Shown here in pieces: positions 1,288 to 40,146 of a DNA stretch of 42,090 nucleotides. The position numbers and the translations under genes were made by a program. Positions within the stretch are counted from its first letter, which is position 1. Each line of letters begins with the position of its first letter. This DNA is from Candidatus Micrarchaeaceae archaeon (GTDB taxonomy: Archaea > Micrarchaeota > Micrarchaeia > Micrarchaeales > Micrarchaeaceae): assembly GCA_027310825.1 (NCBI GenBank), contig DAIDAC010000008.1:1-42090 (forward strand). The letters run 5' to 3'. The notes below the pieces were generated by a model. The model did no database searches. It was not told the origin of the DNA and saw nothing but the letters and a program-made list of their open reading frames with translations.

Positions 1288-1327
1288 ATAATAGAATGAA
1301 ATCCTTAATGAATAAATAGCTGATACT

Positions 1328-2542
1328 ATGCTCCGGGCTCTTTCTAAAACCAGTGGGATAGGAGGCACGATAAAGAGCGCTCCTGACGACTTCGTGGTAG
1401 AGGAGATAACGAAGAATGGAATTGCCCTCGAGCTCAATAAACAGTATACTGCGAGCGAGCTCGGCTTCGAAAGCGCAGAAGAGGGAGCAAGATTCACCAT
1501 GTTTGTGATGCAGAAGAGGGACTGGAACACTGCGCAGGCATTGAGAGCATTGGCAAAGCGGCACAATCACGGAATAAAGTCGATGGGCTTCGCAGGGACA
1601 AAGGACAAAGCCGCAGTGACTACACAGTTGTGCAGCGTCTTCAAGGTAAAGCCGGAGCAGTTGATGATGGGGCATGTCAAGGACATAACAATAAATGGCG
1701 CGTGGCCAAGCAATGACCCTGTAAAAATGGGAGAGCTTATGGGAAATAGGTTTACAATAAAGGTTGTCGGTGCGCACAACATAGAAAACGCCGACAAAAT
1801 AAACGGCGAGCTCAACGGAATATTTCCAAATTACTTCGGTGGACAGCGATTCGGAAATAGGGACAACAACATAACCATCGGAGTAAACATAATGAAGGGC
1901 GATTTCAAAGAGGCGGCTATGCAGTTCCTGACAAACACTACAAACGAAACCAATGAAGATGCAGTTGCAGCTAGAAAAAAGCTTGAAATAGAACAGGACT
2001 TCAGGGCTGCGCTTGGTTATTTCCCGGAATACCTGAGATACGAGCGGCTTCTTCTTGAGCATCTGGCAAGAGTGCCAACAGACTTTGCAGGAGCGATAAG
2101 AAGGCTTCCGAGGACAATTGCGCTTATGTTCGTGCACTCTGTAGAATCCTACATATTCAACAAAGAGCTGGAGGCGCGTGTCGGTGATGGGCTGCTGACT
2201 CCTGTCGACGGAGATTTGCGCTGCGCAACAAACAGTTTTGGTTTCCCGGATTTCGACACCGTGAAAGAAGGAAAAGGGAACATGGCCGTCAGCATGCTGG
2301 TTGGTTATGACAAGCCAGCCAATGATGCACAGAAGAAAATACTTGACGAACTTGGAGTAACGCAGGATATGTTCAAGGTAAAGAGCATGCCAGAGCTGAA
2401 TTGCAAGGGTACGTATAGAGTCATGTTCGCGCCGTATATCGGATTCGAACACAAAGAAGACGGCGACAACACGATATTCAAGTTTTCATTGCCGTCTGGA
2501 TCGTACGCAACAGTGCTCATGAACGAGTTCATGAAAGGCTAG
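1328..2542 (+). CDS. truD: tRNA pseudouridine(13) synthase TruD
   Basis: TruD isomerises uridine 13 of tRNAs to pseudouridine. The 404-residue protein carries the family signature GFAGTKDKAA at residues 87-96, with Asp93 as the expected catalytic aspartate, and NYFGGQRFG further on. The long insert between the two halves of the catalytic domain is normal for archaeal TruD. The start at 1328 follows a TA-rich region at 1284-1325. Its last 14 bases overlap the convergent RNHCP gene. Confidence 0.93.
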   Translation: MLRALSKTSGIGGTIKSAPDDFVVEEITKNGIALELNKQYTASELGFESAEEGARFTMFVMQKRDWNTAQALRALAKRHNHGIKSMGFAGTKDKAAVTTQLCSVFKVKPEQLMMGHVKDITINGAWPSNDPVKMGELMGNRFTIKVVGAHNIENADKINGELNGIFPNYFGGQRFGNRDNNITIGVNIMKGDFKEAAMQFLTNTTNETNEDAVAARKKLEIEQDFRAALGYFPEYLRYERLLLEHLARVPTDFAGAIRRLPRTIALMFVHSVESYIFNKELEARVGDGLLTPVDGDLRCATNSFGFPDFDTVKEGKGNMAVSMLVGYDKPANDAQKKILDELGVTQDMFKVKSMPELNCKGTYRVMFAPYIGFEHKEDGDNTIFKFSLPSGSYATVLMNEFMKG

Positions 2543-2843
2543 TCATGCTCTGAAGCCGCTCTAGCTCTTCCGCGTTGTCTCCGCTTGCAGATTTCATCTT
2601 GATTCTGGCTTTGCACTTCTGGCATTGGTATGTTATTATGTATGTTCCCCGGTCGTGGACCACACTCTTCGGAACAAGCACGCCTTTGCAGTCAGACATC
2701 CTGTCTCCGGGATTTACGTCGACATGAAGGCCGTATAGGCACTTCGGGCAGTGATCGGTGAATCCTGTCCCCTCCACCTCTTCTCCGCAGTGCACGCATG
2801 TGAAATTCTCTTTTGTTCTCGTGAATCTTCCTTTCTCTTCCAT
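2529..2843 (-). CDS. RNHCP-domain zinc-binding protein
   Basis: This 104-residue protein has the RNHCP pattern: FTCVHCGEEV, then DHCPKCLYGLHVD, PGDR, and a following Cys-Gly. It also has an additional QCQKCKA zinc-ribbon-like pair near residues 79-85. The family name motif RNHCP is altered to TDHCP here. Family members are small Zn-ribbon proteins of unknown role, often suspected of binding RNA. The ATG at 2843 is followed by a basic stretch. The gene converges on truD with a 14-base overlap. Confidence 0.8.
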   Translation of the reverse strand: MEEKGRFTRTKENFTCVHCGEEVEGTGFTDHCPKCLYGLHVDVNPGDRMSDCKGVLVPKSVVHDRGTYIITYQCQKCKARIKMKSASGDNAEELERLQSMTSLS

Positions 2844-2873
2844 GATGATACTTCTGTGCTAGGTAATAAATGA

Positions 2874-3632
2874 TTAGTAGCTTGTCGCGTTTTCGCTTGC
2901 CAGAACCCTCTTTATGCTGTCTTTCAGTGCAAGAAATTGGCGTATTATGCCATCGAACTCGGTTTTTGTCAGTTCCTGCGGGTATGTTGGAGTGCTTATC
3001 AATCTTGCGCGTTCTATGCCAGGATAATAATCGGAAAGGTTGTTGAAACCGAACGGCTGGCCTGTTCTAAGAAATAGATCTACTGGAGGTATGCTCCAGT
3101 TCTGCGACAGGTTCGCGAACGTTGGCTCAAGATTTTTCTCTTTGCACCTAAGAAGCGCTCGCTGAAGTTCAACGCTTCCGTCGTAAGGAGCCAGTATGTG
3201 GATCTTCTTGCCCTTGTGCGACTTTACTGATTCGATCGCGGGGTTTATCTCGCTTCCGAACTCCTTGTAGAATTCTGCGTCGCGTTCGCCTGCAATGTCG
3301 ATCCTTAGATCTAGATCCCTTACAACATCGGAAGCGCAGAGTTTTGTTATCCAATATCGTATCGCTTCTCCCAATATCTGCGAATGCTCAGGCGCTCTGT
3401 GCATATTCCGTTCAAGAAGGTAGAACAGTGTAAGTTCGTCGACATGTCCTTGCGGCGAAAGGCTCCAGTCAACCAGCTTTTCCACCACAGCATAGGAGCG
3501 CATGTATGATTCCTTCAGGGCGTTGTGGTCGAGAGACCCCTTTCTCAGGTAAGCCCACCTTCTGTGGCCGTCCGGCCCGTATATCAGATGGCCTACGCGT
3601 GTTGGAGTTGCTTCCTTTGCTTGGCTCGACAT
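2874..3632 (-). CDS. uppS: Divergent cis-prenyltransferase (undecaprenyl diphosphate synthase family)
   Basis: This family condenses isopentenyl diphosphate in the Z configuration to make polyprenyl lipid carriers for glycan assembly. The 252-residue protein has the N-terminal signature as PDGHRRWA, with catalytic Asp21 and the following Arg-Arg-Trp. The C-terminal LFLRTG near residue 187, followed by GFNNL, matches the usual LxIRTGGExRxSN block. The C-terminal half is otherwise divergent, so product chain length cannot be inferred. Several glycosyltransferases in this window (5,728; 7,621; 23,129) could use such a carrier. It starts at the ATG opposite a TATA-rich stretch (3654-3661). Confidence 0.82.
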   Translation of the reverse strand: MSSQAKEATPTRVGHLIYGPDGHRRWAYLRKGSLDHNALKESYMRSYAVVEKLVDWSLSPQGHVDELTLFYLLERNMHRAPEHSQILGEAIRYWITKLCASDVVRDLDLRIDIAGERDAEFYKEFGSEINPAIESVKSHKGKKIHILAPYDGSVELQRALLRCKEKNLEPTFANLSQNWSIPPVDLFLRTGQPFGFNNLSDYYPGIERARLISTPTYPQELTKTEFDGIIRQFLALKDSIKRVLASENATSY

Positions 3633-9055: not shown

Positions 9056-9922
9056 CTATGGCGCGGTGTAGCCGCTCTGCCACGATGACGTGAACCCGGT
9101 ACTACCAAGAGTTATCTGCCCGTTATTGTTATTTCCTGAATAATCATTGTAATTGCCGTTGAGCGGCCACCATCCAACTAGATTTTGTGACCTCACAGGT
9201 GCTCCGCCTATTCCTTCTTGGTAGAGTCCCTGTATTTCCGCTGCAGACAGAGAGGTATTGTAAATTTGGAAGTTTGATGCTTGCCCGTTGAAATATCCGG
9301 CATATACCCCAAGCTGAATTTGCGTTGCGGTGCTAGTGAACGAGAGGGTTGGACTACAAGTATTACCTACGGATTTTCCGTCGAGATAGCCCGACAGAAC
9401 ATTGCTTGTTGGATTGTATGACAAAACTGCATTGTGCCATACTCCTGCAGTCTGAGAAGTCCCAGCTTGCGCCACAAAATTGCAAGAATGACCAACATAG
9501 CCAATTTCATATCTTATATTAGTCGGCGAGTTGAAATAAAAATCTATATAATCTCTAGAAGCTTGGTTTACCAAACCAAAACTGCCACTTGCTGACGTCG
9601 GAATCATGTACCATATCGACCATGTAACGCCATTTGGAAGATTGCCTATAGCATTGCTTCCGGTGATGGTTACTACAGCCGCTGCGCCATTGAATTGCGA
9701 AACGAACCTCGGTTGCTGACCTTGGCATTCGCCTACTAACGAGGAACCTGAAGTAGTCTTCTGCACCTGACATGCTCCCGCTATTGCATAATTGCCGAAA
9801 TTAGAGCCACCTAACACTCCAAGCTGAAACAGCACAGTGAGAACGACTGCAATAATCAGAATGGCCCAGCCATAAGTCATAAGGTATTCCATCGCAGACT
9901 GCGCAGACTTCTGGTTCGCCAT
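9056..9922 (-). CDS. Class III signal peptide LamG-like surface protein (paralog 1)
   Basis: The 288-residue protein starts MANQKSAQSAMEYLMTYGWA, a pilin/archaellin-type leader: a short basic N-terminus, then a conserved Glu at +5 of the expected cleavage site, then a long hydrophobic helix. The rest is a concanavalin-like/LamG domain (about 85-245) ending in a conserved tail NLVGWWPLNGN...DYSGNNNNGQ and the terminal GYTAP. Such proteins are expected to be processed by a prepilin peptidase and assembled or anchored on the surface. The ATG at 9922 fits a TATA element at 9943-9951 for a leaderless mRNA. Paralogs lie at 13,040-13,909 and 35,390-36,328. Confidence 0.82.
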   Translation of the reverse strand: MANQKSAQSAMEYLMTYGWAILIIAVVLTVLFQLGVLGGSNFGNYAIAGACQVQKTTSGSSLVGECQGQQPRFVSQFNGAAAVVTITGSNAIGNLPNGVTWSIWYMIPTSASGSFGLVNQASRDYIDFYFNSPTNIRYEIGYVGHSCNFVAQAGTSQTAGVWHNAVLSYNPTSNVLSGYLDGKSVGNTCSPTLSFTSTATQIQLGVYAGYFNGQASNFQIYNTSLSAAEIQGLYQEGIGGAPVRSQNLVGWWPLNGNYNDYSGNNNNGQITLGSTGFTSSWQSGYTAP

Positions 9923-9961
9923 GCTAATCGATACAAAATGAAACAATAAAAATGTAAGTTA

Positions 9962-13039: not shown

Positions 13040-13909
13040 TTAGGGTGCAGTGTAGCCGCTTTGCCATGAGCTGGTGTAGGACACTCCACTGCCCACTATC
13101 TGCCCATTGTTATTGTTTCCAGAATAATCATTCATGTTTCCGTTTAGTGGCCACCACCCCACAAGGTTCTGGGGACGTACCGGTGCCCCTCCAATCCCCT
13201 CCTGGTAAAGTGCGAGTATCTCGCTTGTCGATAGTGAAGTATTATAGAGTTGCACATTTGCCATGTAGCCCTTAAAATCGTAGCCACAGCCGTTCAAATA
13301 TCCTATGTACCCCGTTCCGCCGGAATGCCCTACCAGGGGACCGGAAACCCCACTTGGTGTGCCTTCCTGCACTCCATTTACATATGTTTTTGCAAGAGAA
13401 CCGTCAAAAGTCCCAGTTACAAATATCCACGTATTAGTAGGATATGATGTTTTGTCTTGTGCCCAGTAAGAACCCAGGCTATTTGCGACCTCCATATTAA
13501 AATACGGGCCGACATTATCAAAATACATTTCATATTGCGAGTTGCAGTGATTTTGGTCGTAGATAGCTGCATTCTCTATCGACTTTAGATTGACCCACGC
13601 AGATACTGTTAGAGATCCAACCAGATTCAAGTTTGATGCAGTACCGACTGTGATGTAGCCACTTCCTGTCATGCTACCGACATACTCTGGCAGTTGCCCT
13701 TGGCACTCTCCCACTAAAGAAGATCCAGCCGCGGTCATTTGCACCTCACACGAACCTGCCTGTGCCGCTGGCGTGAAGTTTCCGCCTGAAAAAACTCCGA
13801 GTTGAAACAGAACTGCAAGAACAACAGCAATAACCAGAATTGCCCATCCATATGTCATCAAATATTCCATTGCGGACTGGCCGGACCTGCCTCTCTGCTT
13901 TATTACCAT
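13040..13909 (-). CDS. Class III signal peptide LamG-like surface protein (paralog 2)
   Basis: The 289-residue protein starts MVIKQRGRSGQSAMEYLMTY, the same pilin-like leader as the paralog at 9,056-9,922. It is followed by GECQGQLPEYV and a LamG/concanavalin-like domain containing the VSAWVNLKS and YNTSLSTSEILALYQEG strands. The C-terminus (GGAPVRPQNLVGWWPLNGN to GYTAP) is nearly identical to that paralog, while the middle differs, suggesting diversification of the exposed face. The start at 13,909 matches a minus-strand TATA (about 13,930-13,938) for leaderless expression. Confidence 0.82.
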   Translation of the reverse strand: MVIKQRGRSGQSAMEYLMTYGWAILVIAVVLAVLFQLGVFSGGNFTPAAQAGSCEVQMTAAGSSLVGECQGQLPEYVGSMTGSGYITVGTASNLNLVGSLTVSAWVNLKSIENAAIYDQNHCNSQYEMYFDNVGPYFNMEVANSLGSYWAQDKTSYPTNTWIFVTGTFDGSLAKTYVNGVQEGTPSGVSGPLVGHSGGTGYIGYLNGCGYDFKGYMANVQLYNTSLSTSEILALYQEGIGGAPVRPQNLVGWWPLNGNMNDYSGNNNNGQIVGSGVSYTSSWQSGYTAP

Positions 13910-13967
13910 GTTATTGTATAAGTGAAAATGATTAAAAGCCTTCTGAGACATGTGTCTGTGTGATTCC

Positions 13968-14582
13968 ATGGTGTTCATAGACAACCTCGCCTTCTCTCTG
14001 TTTTCGCTCAGCTTTGCTGGCTTTCTGCTGCTTTACACAATCACTTCGATGTACTTCGTCTATAGGAGCAGGAAGAAAGATTATGGAGAACATCTCCTCG
14101 GCGCCATGGCACCAATGGCCATTGTCGGCGCATATCTGATACTGATGGGTATCTGGGGGCAGTTCACGTGGCCTCTTCCTGGAAGCTACAACATCCTCTT
14201 CTATGACCCTATGGTAGCATTCGGAATGGTGGTCCTCGCATTTGCGATGTCGATACGCTTCAATGTTCGCCTCGAGTATGCCGGATTCCTTGGCTTGCTG
14301 GTTGGAATTATGACACTGCTCTACGGCTGGCAGGGCTACAGCATAGGCTTGACACAGGCGCCCATCGCCCTTCTTGGAATGTATTTCGCTTATGGAATAG
14401 CGGGGGTATTTGCATATCCAGTGTCGCTTATTGCAGATCGCCTCCCTGGCCTCCAGAAGAATCCTTGGATAGGCTGGCACATCTGCCTCGCAATCTTCTG
14501 GCTCTTCCTGTTTGGAGCAAGCCTTGTTTCCGGCTACGTTGGACTGAACGCAATCGGCTCTCACCTAGTAAGCCCGCCTTGA
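13968..14582 (+). CDS. DUF981 family membrane protein
   Basis: The 204-residue protein has about seven hydrophobic helices and the loop WPLPGSYNILFYDPMVAFGMV typical of the DUF981 family of archaeal and bacterial membrane proteins with no known function. The ATG at 13,968 is used. Its promoter overlaps that of the divergent LamG gene (TATA-like elements at 13,914-13,922 and 13,930-13,938). There is no ligand or catalytic motif to comment on. Confidence 0.72.
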   Translation: MVFIDNLAFSLFSLSFAGFLLLYTITSMYFVYRSRKKDYGEHLLGAMAPMAIVGAYLILMGIWGQFTWPLPGSYNILFYDPMVAFGMVVLAFAMSIRFNVRLEYAGFLGLLVGIMTLLYGWQGYSIGLTQAPIALLGMYFAYGIAGVFAYPVSLIADRLPGLQKNPWIGWHICLAIFWLFLFGASLVSGYVGLNAIGSHLVSPP

Positions 14583-35257: not shown

Positions 35258-35271
35258 TGTAAGCTTATTTT

Positions 35272-35342
35272 GGGCCCGTCGTTCAATGGTAGGACGCTAG
35301 CCTTACACGCTTGCGACGGGAGTTCGATTCTCCCCGGGCCCA
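35272..35342 (+). tRNA. tRNA-Val (UAC)
   Basis: A 71-base cloverleaf with perfect acceptor GGGCCCG/CGGGCCC and discriminator A. The anticodon loop CTTACAC gives UAC. The T arm is GGGAG/CTCCC with TTCGATT. One T-T mismatch in the anticodon stem. No intron and no encoded CCA. CTTTTT follows directly and may end transcription. Confidence 0.93.
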
Positions 35343-35389
35343 CTTTTTACTTGGCGCATCTTTTTATAGCTGCCTTTGTAAACAATTTC

Positions 35390-36328
35390 ATGCAAAAAGC
35401 CCGAAGCATGAAGCAGGCGTCAGCGCTTGAATATCTGGTTACCTACTCTTGGATGATAATCATAATCGCCGTGGCCATAGCGGCGTTATGGCAGCTAGGA
35501 GTATTCGGAGGCGCGAACTCTGGACCGAAAGCGACACCAGGATCATGCCGGGTTGTGAGGCCTGTCGGCAGCATAGCAAGCCTTCAAGGCACGTGCTTTG
35601 GAGAACTGCCGGAGTATGTAGCAAGCATCCCGCTGTATAGCGGTGCAGTGCTATCCAATGCCTTATCGACCAGTCCCGAAACTACACAGAATTTCACCAT
35701 TACGATGTGGACCGATATACCGGATCTTAATTATGGAGAAATTTTAATCGGGTCAGGAGGGAGCGATACTGGATATTTTGCTGCGTATCCTGGTGCAAAC
35801 GGAATATCGTTCAGCTGCCTCCCAGGCTCTCTGGCTTGTACTTTTACTGGCGCTTCTTCCCAAACTGTTCCTTCGACCCAATGGGTATTTGTTGCCGCAA
35901 CTGTCAATTCCATAGGTTCTGGCACCTCTACAATAGTTTACCATTTGAATGGAGCTTCAGACACCGAAACTTCGGGCGGAACAAGTTTCTTAAATTCTGG
36001 GATAGGGATGGGAATAAACATGGGTTCGTGCAAAGTCGGAGTCGCTTATGATAAATGCGCAACCGAGAGCGATGGCTTGATGGCAAACCTTCAGATTTAT
36101 AACGCCACGCTCACGTCAGGAGACATAAATGCAATATATCTGAGCGGGATAGGTGGAGCTCCTTCTGACCTCAACCACCTAATTGCCTGGTACCCACTCA
36201 ATGGAAATCTAAACGACTATAGCGGGTACGGTTATAATTTGATGCCATATAACGCAGAAGGCGGTCTTTACTCGACAAACGGCATACAGTACACCGCTGC
36301 ATGGGAAGGTAATTATACTGCACCATGA
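35390..36328 (+). CDS. Class III signal peptide LamG-like surface protein (paralog 3)
   Basis: The 312-residue protein starts MQKARSMKQASALEYLVTYSW and has the same pilin-like leader and hydrophobic helix (about 17-40) as the two paralogs at 9 and 13 kb. A LamG/concanavalin-like domain (about 95-250) follows, then the tail NGNLNDYSGYGYN and terminal NYTAP. It is more diverged, with TYSWM in place of TYGWA. An internal ATG at 35,408 is an equally possible start given a TATA element near 35,371-35,379. Confidence 0.8.
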   Translation: MQKARSMKQASALEYLVTYSWMIIIIAVAIAALWQLGVFGGANSGPKATPGSCRVVRPVGSIASLQGTCFGELPEYVASIPLYSGAVLSNALSTSPETTQNFTITMWTDIPDLNYGEILIGSGGSDTGYFAAYPGANGISFSCLPGSLACTFTGASSQTVPSTQWVFVAATVNSIGSGTSTIVYHLNGASDTETSGGTSFLNSGIGMGINMGSCKVGVAYDKCATESDGLMANLQIYNATLTSGDINAIYLSGIGGAPSDLNHLIAWYPLNGNLNDYSGYGYNLMPYNAEGGLYSTNGIQYTAAWEGNYTAP

Positions 36329-36391: not shown

Positions 36392-37168
36392 ATGCAGAAC
36401 GCAGAAGAGATTATCGACCGCTATTCAGGAATGATAACTAGGAGCATGGCAGAATCGATGGCCAGCTCTCCTGATTCGGAAAGCGAGATCAAGGCTGATT
36501 CTGCAAGGCGCAACGACACAACAGACGCTGCCGGGATCATACAATTTGCCGGGATGAAGCGAAAGGTCGGGATGAGCCTTAACAGAAGCGAAGATGCATA
36601 CACTGTAAACGTCGAGGACACGGTATACAGGGTTTTCAATTCTGGCGATCGCGGGAAAGGCATAAGGCGGGACATAGTCATCGGCCGCGAAGGCGCAACG
36701 ATAAGAATAATCCTTCATGGGAAAATCGCTGAGCAGATAGACACGGAAAAGGTGTGCCGTGGCGACAAGGTGCTGATAAGAAATGTTGTGCTAGATCCTG
36801 CAACCATGGATTTGGAGAGCAGACCAGACACTTCGTTGATGATGACAACGCAGGCGAAAGCCAAGACTGTTCCTTTGCAGGAACTGCGAGAAGGAATGAA
36901 AAACGTCGACATCTCCGGAAAGCTGGCCGAAGTCGGGATACTGAAGCAAGTCAGCAAGCTGAGCGGAAACGGAACAGTCGCAGTTGTGAACTGTACAATC
37001 CGCGACGCTGATTCTCCTGTTTCTTTGATCCTCTGGGAATCGTCTGCCAACATAGCTTCTAAGATGGTTCCGAATGACACAGTGAGGATAGAATTTTGCA
37101 GCGTACGGTCGAAAAACGGCCTGATTGAAATAGTCGCGAACGAGTATTCCAGAGTGCTGAAGCTCTGA
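36392..37168 (+). CDS. RPA-like OB-fold single-stranded DNA-binding protein
   Basis: The 258-residue protein has two OB-fold-like regions: about 65-140 (YTVNVEDTVYRVF to GDKVLIRNVVLD) and about 170-258 (KNVDISGKLAEVGILKQVS to VRIEFCSVRSKNGLIEI). The second resembles the archaeal RPA/SSB core with TVAVVNCTIRDADSPVSLILWE. No zinc finger is seen. It probably binds single-stranded DNA during replication or repair. It abuts the stop of the convergent AAA gene. Confidence 0.78.
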   Translation: MQNAEEIIDRYSGMITRSMAESMASSPDSESEIKADSARRNDTTDAAGIIQFAGMKRKVGMSLNRSEDAYTVNVEDTVYRVFNSGDRGKGIRRDIVIGREGATIRIILHGKIAEQIDTEKVCRGDKVLIRNVVLDPATMDLESRPDTSLMMTTQAKAKTVPLQELREGMKNVDISGKLAEVGILKQVSKLSGNGTVAVVNCTIRDADSPVSLILWESSANIASKMVPNDTVRIEFCSVRSKNGLIEIVANEYSRVLKL

Positions 37169-39931
37169 TCATCTCTGGCCGTATTTGTCCAGGAATCCTT
37201 GGAACTCCGCAAGCACAGAATCCGATGCAGAAGGCTTTGTGTCCTTTATGATGTTTTCGATAACTTCTGTCGTTACTCTTCCTTCTGAGCCGGTCTCGAT
37301 CTCCTGCTGCATGGCTGCTGTCTTCGCCTTCCTGCATATCTCTGCTATATCTGCGCCGGTGTAGCCCTTTGTCGCAGAGCCGAGCTTTGAGTAGTCGATA
37401 GTGTCAGACGGCGCGCCAGTCAGGAATTTGTTGAACATCGACGTTCTCGCAGCTGCTGACGGCGGCTTTATGAAAAGAAGCCTGTCGAATCTTCCTGGAC
37501 GAAGCACTGCAGTGTCTACGTTCTGTGGCAGGTTTGTTGCGCCGATCACCACCACGTTCTCCATTTTGTTGATTCCGTCTATTTCCTTTAGCACTTCGGT
37601 TGTTATCGAAACGCTGAGCTCGCTTGCGCCCTGACGCTTTGGAAGAAGAGCGTCAATTTCATCTATGAAAATCACAGAGGGCGCGTTCTCCCTTGCTCTC
37701 TCGAATATGTCCTTGATAGTTGCAGTCGCGCGCTCCAGCCCCTGCTCCGAAAGGTCTGAACCCGTTATGCTGAGCATTGCTATGCCCTTCATGCTGTTCT
37801 GCACAGCTTTCATCAGCAAGGTCTTTCCGTTTCCAGGAGGGCCGAACAGAAGGACTCCATTGACTGTCTTGATGCTGTATTTCTTTATCATCTCCGGGTG
37901 AAGGAGCGGTATCTCGATCGCTTCCCTTATCGCCTTCTTCGCCGGCTCAAGACCGATGACGTCTTCCATCGACACTGCGTCAGGCTCTACTTCCTCTATG
38001 GTCTTGTGGGAGCTTCGCTCGAAGTCCATCTTGAATCGCTTGTAGTCGTCGATCTGGCTCAACGTTGTCGACGGCTTTGTCGCCTTTATGACACCAAGTA
38101 TGTCCTCGTGCGTTATCTCAAGGATCTTGTGCTCTGTTGCAGCGTCTTGCGCAACCATCTGCGCCACGCTCTCGCAAAGAGCTTTTATGTCTGCGCCAGT
38201 GTATCGCTCTGTCTTTTCCGCCAGCTCCTTTATCTTCACGTTGTTTGAAATCGGGAGTTTGCCAAGATAGATCTTGAATATTCTTGCACGCCCTTCGCTC
38301 GTCGGCACCGGCATGTAGATCAATCTGTCGAATCTTCCTGGACGCAGTATTGCGTTGTCCAGTATGTCCGGTCTGTTCGTTGCGCCGACTATTATGACGT
38401 TGTTTATCTTCTGGAATCCGTCCATCTCGGTGAGCAGCTGCGTGAGTGCATGCTTGTGTGTGTCGTCGACGCCGGTCGCGTCCCTGCTGGTGGCGAGCGC
38501 ATCTATTTCGTCAAAGAAGAGCACGCACGGGGCGTTTTTCTTTGCGATTGAGAATATGTTAGCTAGCTGCTTCTCTGTCTCTCCCGGAAAAGCAGAGACA
38601 AGGTTGCTTGCCTTAACGTAGTAGAAGCCAGCGCGTATTTCGTTGGCTAGCGCACGCATCATCATTGTCTTTCCGGTTCCAGGAGGGCCGAACAGAAGGA
38701 TTCCTTTTGTAGGTGCGATGTTGTAAGCGGTTGCGATTGCGCGCTCCTCGATCGGCGCGATTATTGCTTCGCGGAGTTCTTTCTTCGTATCCTCGTAGTT
38801 GCCTATGTCTTCGAAACGCTCTGTTGTTGTGCCTCCTGCCAGGTCTTCGAAAGCCTCTCCGAATTTCATTCTTATGTCCTGCTTCCTGACGTCGAGAACC
38901 TTGACAAGGCTTATTCCCTGGCTTTCGAACACATAGAGCGTTGCCGGTGCAATCACGAAGCTTATGAGCGGAAGCACAGGGCTTATCGGATCAAATCCGT
39001 AGCTGCTGGAGAACAAAATGTATGTGAGCGGATAGACTATGCCGAACATTCCTGCTATCGATCCTTTGTACTTCGACCTGCTTAGGCTTGCATACCAATC
39101 CATTGCAAATATTATAGTGCCGAGGATTATGAATTGTATAATGTACCCGGCCGGGCTTATCGCCCACGTCTGTGCTATCAGAGACAGCGAGCTGTTTATC
39201 TGGCTGACTACAGCGTTGCTGAAGAAGTTCTCGAAAGTTGTGGCTAAGCCTGAGCCGAGGTTGGTGATTGTGAAGCCTGCCTTGGCTGCAGTGTCTAACG
39301 GGACAAGCGGGCTTGCAGCTATGGCGCTGTGGGAGACCGATGCACTGTAGAGTATGTAGCCGCTGTTCTGAAGCCCTGTGACTGCTGAAAGCGGAACTAT
39401 CAGCATTATGCTTAGAAGCAAAAACAGCAAAGCGCGTTTGTTGCCTATAGTAAGCACTGCAAGTATGAATGCAGGTATCTCCAAAAGGTAGCCTGCCGGA
39501 GAGAACGCGAGCGTTGTGAGAAGGAGCGCGAAAATCATAATTCTGTAATGCATGTAGCCGTAGATCAGCACAGCGGCTGCGACAAGCAGGAACGCCCATG
39601 CCAACACTGGAGTCTGGTATGCAAATATTGGGAATATGGCGACAAGCAGCGACAGAAGCCCGAGGAATGAATGCTTGAGCGTGATAAAGAATAGCACAAC
39701 TGCAATGACTGCTATCAATGGCAATGGATAGAACTGGAATGTGGTAGAAGAGAAAACGAAAACGAGCGTTATCAGTATAGCGTCGAGAAGGTCCGGGTTC
39801 GACGTGACTTTGTTGATCTGGTCCTTTATGTTGTAGGCGCCCATTGGCCCGTGCCTGTGGCTCTTCCTGATCACTTCTTCGCTCACGCTGCCAGGCTTCG
39901 CTTTTATCTTGGAAGCATCGCTAGCAGCCAC
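37169..39931 (-). CDS. Membrane-embedded double-AAA (Cdc48-type) ATPase
   Basis: The 920-residue protein has about ten membrane helices in residues 45-335, in place of the Cdc48 N-domain. Two AAA modules follow. D1: GPPGTGKT (415-422), FFDEID (about 472), GATNRPD and RPGRFDR. D2: GPPGNGKT (697-704), FIDEID (about 754), GATNLPQ and RPGRFDR. Both keep Walker and arginine-finger residues, so both can hydrolyse ATP. Archaea lack bacterial FtsH, and a role in extracting or refolding membrane proteins is likely but inferred. The D2 pore loop differs from the usual aromatic-hydrophobic pair. The ATG at 39,931 opens MAASDASKIK. Confidence 0.88.
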   Translation of the reverse strand: MAASDASKIKAKPGSVSEEVIRKSHRHGPMGAYNIKDQINKVTSNPDLLDAILITLVFVFSSTTFQFYPLPLIAVIAVVLFFITLKHSFLGLLSLLVAIFPIFAYQTPVLAWAFLLVAAAVLIYGYMHYRIMIFALLLTTLAFSPAGYLLEIPAFILAVLTIGNKRALLFLLLSIMLIVPLSAVTGLQNSGYILYSASVSHSAIAASPLVPLDTAAKAGFTITNLGSGLATTFENFFSNAVVSQINSSLSLIAQTWAISPAGYIIQFIILGTIIFAMDWYASLSRSKYKGSIAGMFGIVYPLTYILFSSSYGFDPISPVLPLISFVIAPATLYVFESQGISLVKVLDVRKQDIRMKFGEAFEDLAGGTTTERFEDIGNYEDTKKELREAIIAPIEERAIATAYNIAPTKGILLFGPPGTGKTMMMRALANEIRAGFYYVKASNLVSAFPGETEKQLANIFSIAKKNAPCVLFFDEIDALATSRDATGVDDTHKHALTQLLTEMDGFQKINNVIIVGATNRPDILDNAILRPGRFDRLIYMPVPTSEGRARIFKIYLGKLPISNNVKIKELAEKTERYTGADIKALCESVAQMVAQDAATEHKILEITHEDILGVIKATKPSTTLSQIDDYKRFKMDFERSSHKTIEEVEPDAVSMEDVIGLEPAKKAIREAIEIPLLHPEMIKKYSIKTVNGVLLFGPPGNGKTLLMKAVQNSMKGIAMLSITGSDLSEQGLERATATIKDIFERARENAPSVIFIDEIDALLPKRQGASELSVSITTEVLKEIDGINKMENVVVIGATNLPQNVDTAVLRPGRFDRLLFIKPPSAAARTSMFNKFLTGAPSDTIDYSKLGSATKGYTGADIAEICRKAKTAAMQQEIETGSEGRVTTEVIENIIKDTKPSASDSVLAEFQGFLDKYGQR

Positions 39932-40043: not shown

Positions 40044-40146
40044 CCCGTCGTAGCTCAATGGTAGAGCGATCGCCTGTAGTTTGTAAGGGTCCAGCGCCAC
40101 GCGTGCTGAAAGCGATAGGTTGGGCGTTCGACTCGCCCCGACGGGA
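40044..40146 (+). tRNA. tRNA-Tyr (GUA) with a 31-base intron
   Basis: Acceptor CCCGTCG/CGACGGG with C1-G72, the archaeal tyrosine identity pair, and discriminator A. The D arm is AGCTC..GAGC. Anticodon stem ATCGC/GCGAT closes a 38-base loop starting CTGTAG, giving GUA and a 31-base intron after position 37. The T arm is GGGCG/CGCCC with TTCGACT. A TATA box at about 40,009-40,018 lies upstream. Confidence 0.93.

Follow-up and report, generated by a model that had tools for sequence, protein, structure and literature searches.

Introduction

FtsH is absent in archaea, where LonB, a membrane-bound protein with its own protease and two spans, is the presumed functional counterpart and the only membrane ATP-dependent protease on record (PMC4343526). 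Little is understood of how archaea clear faulty membrane proteins in the absence of FtsH. Methanogens have a 'membrane-bound AAA (MBA)' group. Among the membrane extractors, Msp1 has a transmembrane helix in the place of the N-domain, and a double-aromatic pore loop 1, noted for both Msp1 and Cdc48, serves the extraction of hydrophobic chains (PMC7018516). Eukaryotic Cdc48 retains the aromatic pore motif in D2 and has lost it in D1; archaeal Cdc48 has the motif in D1 too (PMC5511170). No membrane-bound archaeal Cdc48 was found in the open literature.

In this study, we analyzed a 42,090-nucleotide stretch of a Candidatus Micrarchaeaceae archaeon (contig DAIDAC010000008.1; hereafter the window), which belongs to a genome of 975 kb in 15 contigs (92% complete). 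An earlier note on this stretch had pointed to a gene for a Cdc48-like ATPase with a membrane domain. The encoded product, referred to here as the membrane AAA protein, resembles several known systems in part. It shares with FtsH an N-terminal membrane part, a cytoplasmic AAA ring, and a possible role in membrane-protein quality control; it differs in having no M41 protease, two AAA domains, and ten predicted spans instead of two. Like the Msp1/ATAD1 dislocase, it has a membrane anchor at the N-domain position, an aromatic pore loop in most members, and no protease of its own; however, Msp1 is eukaryotic and has one span and one AAA domain (PMC7018516), against approximately ten hydrophobic segments and two AAA domains here. 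In Cdc48 with Derlin, Hrd1, or Doa10 (ERAD), a double AAA ring is likewise coupled to a substrate-handing polytopic membrane protein, whereas motor and membrane part are one polypeptide here; none of the PDB fold hits listed was a Derlin, Hrd1, or Doa10 structure. Archaeal LonB is also a membrane-bound archaeal AAA+ machine, but it differs in its protease and span number (PMC4343526) and coexists with the membrane AAA protein in the same genomes. The plant Spaf-like proteins are the only tandem Cdc48-family proteins with a membrane segment in the literature searched; their single C-terminal segment, gained in eudicots, represents an unrelated layout (PMC5070193). PAN, the proteasome ATPase, has a single AAA domain, an OB domain, and an HbYX tail, whereas the membrane AAA protein has two AAA domains and no HbYX.

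Results

Architecture of the membrane AAA gene

The features of the gene are listed in Table 1. The tandem AAA arrangement behind a polytopic membrane domain, as proposed in the earlier note, was borne out by a single 920-residue frame, two classical AAA domains (258 bits to Pfam PF00004 over two stretches, nothing else of weight), and the hydrophobic segments preceding them. D1 is the most conserved part, with a mean identity of 64% over the family of the window; D2 follows with 53% and the membrane domain with 38%. The linker between the membrane domain and D1 reads VRKxDxRMKFGEAFEDL in the window protein and KFGKFGxxDL class-wide.

Table 1. Coordinates of the membrane AAA gene, its parts, and its convergent neighbor in the window.
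Feature	Residues	Position	Strand	Basis or remark
Whole membrane AAA gene, 920 aa, GTG start, stop at 37169-37171		37169..39931	-	Single frame, zero internal stops; homologues likewise in one open frame
Basic N-terminal tail, helices 15-24 and 30-43	1-47	39791..39931	-	Predicted cytoplasmic
Polytopic membrane domain, ~10 hydrophobic segments	48-337	38921..39790	-	No family or fold match
Long loop between membrane segments, conserved N189 and Y195, short helices 225-236 and 245-257	186-259	39155..39376	-	Predicted extracellular
Conserved charged linker, membrane domain to D1	338-371	38819..38920	-	Sequence conservation
AAA domain D1	372-640	38012..38818	-	Pfam PF00004
D1 Walker A, GPPGTGKT	415-422	38666..38689	-	Invariant except T419 in 2/26 class-level members
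D1 pore loop, SAFPGETE	446-453	38573..38596	-	WYGES in most class-level members
D1 Walker B	470-475	38507..38524	-	Motif conservation
AAA domain D2	660-903	37223..37954	-	Pfam PF00004
D2 Walker A, GPPGNGKT	697-704	37820..37843	-	Motif conservation
D2 pore-loop region, LSEQGLER	727-734	37730..37753	-	Aromatic-X-glycine motif absent
C-terminal helix and tail, YxxFxxKYG[QE]R, conserved	904-920	37172..37222	-	No terminal HbYX
Convergent neighbor, weakly RPA/OB-fold-like protein		36392..37168	+	Downstream of AAA gene in 29/49 loci

Topology and fold of the membrane domain

The membrane domain is strongly hydrophobic, both in the window protein and as a family average. Conserved lysine and arginine residues lie on alternate loops (the N-terminus, 86, 130, 165-166, 285-289, and 344-356), and the N-terminal tail carries a K/R sum of 8.8 per sequence, averaged over the family of the window. 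This alternation points to a chain that crosses the membrane ten times and has both termini in the cytoplasm, and an N-in/C-in topology would place the AAA rings in the cytoplasm. The AlphaFold model of the N-terminal 365 residues is confident (mean pLDDT 89.8, pTM 0.85; full chain, pLDDT 82) and shows nine long hydrophobic helices, since it merges segments 4 and 5 into a single helix of 35 residues, 108-142. Ten is therefore the likely span count, with alternative counts possible, in agreement with the ten-helix domain of about 290 residues described earlier.

No Pfam family matched the N-terminal 365 residues in 47 members beyond two chance hits. For the membrane domain, no sequence match was found in the PDB, no PDB fold match was better than E = 1.5 (the best hits being at chance level), and no fold match was found among viral models (BFVD). 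Judged by these model comparisons, the domain appears to be an as yet unsolved fold. It retains only approximately 20% identity across the class, yet Y105-Q106, F143, G163, and N189 are kept. The strictly conserved polar positions are Y33, K165, R166, N189, and Y105-Q106, and the domain has conserved intramembrane charges at D50, D278, and E336.

Occurrence of the membrane AAA protein

In approximately 68 of the 85 genomes of the family, the alignment to a homologue started close to the N-terminus and ran across both AAA domains, in one open frame; further genomes of the family had truncated homologues on short contigs. An assembly or annotation artefact, raised in the earlier note as a possible objection, is thus ruled out. 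Its other possible objection, that such a protein is already well described in relatives, found no support: an earlier description was not found in the open literature searched, papers on cultured Micrarchaeota included (subscription papers and preprints were outside the scope).

A first membrane-domain profile matched 241 of the 301 genomes of the phylum and 86 of the 96 better ones. With a broader profile, 250/301 were matched, mostly inside one open frame of approximately 900 residues. The set searched with this broader profile also included approximately 94 genomes from other archaeal phyla, and all matches listed lay inside the phylum. In two further phyla, represented by 6 and 87 genomes, no match was convincing: the two hits there (E near 3e-4 and 6e-4) were at chance level and lay in frames of 69 and 67 residues, one of them broken by stops. 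Among the genomes sampled, the membrane-AAA-AAA protein is nearly universal in Micrarchaeota and restricted to this phylum. Families f22-f28 (genomes G272-G300) of the same class have no membrane AAA protein; ordinary Cdc48 proteins are present in them. One genome (G083) has two full-length copies of the gene on contig 5, at 40280-42931 and 70511-73228, approximately 30 kb apart.

Catalytic motifs and pore loops of the two AAA rings

Motif conservation was scored in 50 members from the family of the window and in 26 class-level members. In the 50 family members, D1 is invariant in Walker A (GPPGTGKT), Walker B (D474/E475), sensor (T518-N519), and arginine fingers (R530/R533); D2 is invariant in GPPGxGK, E758, T799-N800, and R811/R814. 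The 26 class-level members have the same catalytic motifs in both domains, with single exceptions only. The claim that both rings are catalytically intact holds for these motifs in D1 and D2, with the qualification that the D2 pore loop has no aromatic-X-glycine.

The D1 pore loop is mostly WYG in the class-level members (W/Y at 448 in 22/26, Y/F at 449 in 24/26). In the family of the window it is F/Y-P-G, with FPG in the window protein. In D2, a glycine occupies the position of the tryptophan of Cdc48, followed by Y in most class-level members and by I/L in the family of the window. As read from these motifs, the two rings are non-equivalent, D1 usually having an aromatic pore loop and D2 no aromatic-X-glycine. 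The pattern, in which D1 keeps the motif and D2 has lost it, is the reverse of that in eukaryotic Cdc48 (PMC5511170).

The homologues of two genomes contain inteins exactly within the D1 pore loop (WYGE / S), at loci L193 (G182:C29:400-6900) and L194 (G124:C17:23500-28200). Inteins usually sit in functionally essential sites. L193 has an apparent second intein near the D1 Walker B, and several further class-level members have frames of 1380-1450 residues, the size expected with an intein.

The C-terminus, KYG[QE]R, is not the HbYX proteasome-docking motif, and direct proteasome docking via HbYX is ruled out on sequence; the Cdc48 of the host ends in MMYR.

Relation to Cdc48

The membrane AAA protein and Cdc48/p97/VAT have in common a tandem D1-D2 cassette, with approximately 40% identity per domain to the Cdc48 of the host, and a helix after D2. 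VAT is the best solved-structure sequence match. They differ in that a polytopic membrane domain stands here in place of the double-psi N-domain, in the missing HbYX tail, and in the separate branching of the AAA domains. The best NCBIfam model, CDC48 (TIGR01243), scored 464.6 bits, below its cut-off of 802.65; the PAN model scored 439 bits, summed over the two AAA domains, against a cut-off of 500. In single-AAA-domain trees, D1 and D2 each formed a clan, neither joining Cdc48 D1 or D2. A tree constrained to an orthologous D1-D1/D2-D2 arrangement with Cdc48 was disfavored at AU p = 0.074, above the 5% level. A recent internal duplication of one AAA domain in this lineage was disfavored more clearly (AU p = 0.032, rejected at 5%). 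The trees comprised 241 aligned positions and had long outgroup branches, which limits their weight on the origin of the lineage. A true Cdc48 with a normal N-domain is encoded elsewhere in the host genome. Of the earlier statement that the Cdc48 N-domain had been replaced, the tandem AAA layout and the missing double-psi barrel domain stood; descent from Cdc48 found no support, in view of the trees, the model score (465 versus 803), and the separate Cdc48. 'Cdc48-like' fits the layout; the sequence comparisons fall short of establishing a 'Cdc48 with a new N-domain'.

Proteolytic context and neighboring genes

The FtsH M41 protease was found in none of 80 genomes (75 from the phylum, the host genome included), and 10 of 14 control genomes were positive. 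A Lon C-terminal protease domain was present in 80/80; the LonB-type gene of the host is on contig 11, and an HtpX gene lies within the window. These results agree with the earlier note in the absence of FtsH and the presence of LonB and HtpX, and the absence of FtsH matches what is stated for archaea in general (PMC4343526). The proteasome was present in all 27 genomes tested. For the membrane AAA protein itself, neither M41 nor the S16 Lon protease domain was among the families shown, which, together with the 80 genomes, rules out an FtsH-like protease. The idea that the protein fills the gap of a missing LonB is likewise ruled out by the presence of LonB in all 80 genomes.

Lon_C matches averaged 3.6 per genome in f22-f28, without the membrane AAA protein, versus 2.0 in carriers; the two distributions may be complementary, an unproven lead, as f22-f28 are possibly one clade and some of their LonB genes bear inteins. 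No PAN-type ATPase was among the four AAA matches in the host genome; the remaining one of these is a TPR-AAA protein, not PAN. Locus L004 (G000 contig 9, 64625-68428; ORF 1291-2901, minus strand) encodes a 536-residue protein that combines TPR-like repeats at its N-terminus with a single AAA domain. It has a similar counterpart in L195, and in the tree it stands far from every other AAA protein.

Across 49 loci, no operon partner or conserved client gene was found beside the membrane AAA gene. The weakly RPA-like gene is the only frequent neighbor; its stop codon abuts the AAA stop, and, being convergent, it is no operon partner.

Discussion

The AAA motor of the membrane AAA protein is itself known; what would be new, on the comparisons made here, is its fusion to a polytopic membrane domain in a phylum-specific protein. 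Our preferred reading, held tentatively and with slightly less than even confidence, is that the protein may be a membrane-embedded, protease-free double-ring AAA unfoldase that acts as a membrane-protein dislocase. This reading draws on the conserved catalytic residues of both AAA domains, cytoplasmic AAA rings under a polytopic domain, a D1 loop of the aromatic type in most members (as noted for the extractors Msp1 and Cdc48), the lack of a protease domain, the absence of FtsH from the phylum, proteases at hand in trans, wide conservation, and the lack of a fixed gene partner; occurrence in 250/301 genomes is as expected for a housekeeping function. The subunits would assemble, probably into hexamers, and the polytopic domains would form an intramembrane collar above the D1 pore, recognizing misfolded, orphaned, or mistargeted membrane proteins. 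Lying directly beneath the membrane, D1, whose pore loop is of the aromatic type in most members, would grip the chain and pull it into the cytoplasm. D2 would hydrolyze ATP without the canonical grip residue; its probable role is to stabilize the ring, to coordinate the cycle, or to hand over the chain. Degradation of the freed chains could then follow in trans, through LonB, HtpX, or the Cdc48-proteasome. By analogy, Msp1 is the nearest functional precedent. A dedicated membrane extraction machine, the possibility raised in the earlier note, is still the reading that needs the fewest assumptions. A direct link with the proteasome finds no support, since the HbYX motif is missing here and present in the Cdc48 of the host.

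Several points count against a dislocase. LonB is already there, leaving no obvious vacancy; f22-f28 have no such protein and seem to manage; the FPG/YPG pore loop in the family of the window is, by sequence, less aromatic than WYG; and the modeled membrane fold is without a known counterpart. A bolder proposal, which we consider unlikely, is that the protein represents an undescribed class of extraction machine, nearly universal in the FtsH-less Micrarchaeota, in which an AAA-AAA lineage not derived from Cdc48 is combined with a new ten-helix fold serving as lateral gate and retrotranslocation channel. If true, one polypeptide would do the work of Cdc48 plus Hrd1, Derlin, or Doa10 in eukaryotes.

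The strongest rival to the dislocase is a dedicated assembly or translocation factor for one or a few clients, whose membrane domain docks a specific complex that the motor remodels, similar to Bcs1 and the Rieske protein, which Bcs1 reportedly serves. We rate it as unlikely. A large, individual membrane domain with strictly conserved polar positions exceeds the need of a plain anchor, the long outer loop (186-259) might accommodate a client, and the occurrence is confined to one phylum; however, none of the 49 loci has a conserved client gene beside the AAA gene, and clients would need an equal phylum-wide spread. Two other readings appear improbable, each to a similar degree. One is a membrane-tethered unfoldase coupled directly to the 20S proteasome or LonB as a composite FtsH-like machine, for which both proteases are at hand (27/27 and 80/80 genomes) and no PAN-type ATPase was among the four AAA matches of the host; against it, the tail is not HbYX, no docking motif is evident on the D2 exit ring, and the host Cdc48 can serve the proteasome. 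The other takes the membrane domain as a transporter, channel, lipid-handling module, or sensor that the AAA rings gate or regulate, extraction not being its job. Ten spans with conserved charges inside the membrane would be unusual for a simple anchor, but no transporter family or fold matched, the best PDB hits being at chance level, polypeptides are what classical AAA rings with an aromatic D1 pore work on, and the D1 pore loop is the exact site of an intein in two members.

Very improbable, in our judgment, is an ordinary Cdc48 paralogue that exchanged its N-domain for a membrane anchor and handles the usual soluble Cdc48 clients near the membrane. The tandem layout, the match to VAT, and the orthologous arrangement that the AU test left unrejected speak for it, whereas neither domain groups with Cdc48, the CDC48 score is below cut-off, HbYX is absent, the D2 pore motif is lost, and an anchor would call for a much smaller and less conserved membrane domain.

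A phylum-wide, protease-free membrane unfoldase would be a concrete second candidate, beside LonB, for the clearance of faulty membrane proteins in archaea, and could offer a minimal one-gene model for retrotranslocation. The inverted pore loops of the protein, with D1 gripping and D2 not, would constitute a natural experiment on the division of labor in double-ring motors. For lineages known mostly from metagenomes, it is also a further conserved membrane protein of probable importance.

Other features of the window

A tRNA gene with an apparent intron lies at 40044-40146 (+), just upstream of a HIT-family gene; it was detected with Rfam and missed by ARAGORN. Several genes, at 9056-9946, 13040-13984, and 35270-36328, encode proteins with pilin-like N-termini (SAMEYLMTYGWAILIIAV or similar) and LamG-like secreted domains. 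These proteins have a common motif near the C-terminus and form a small paralogous family.
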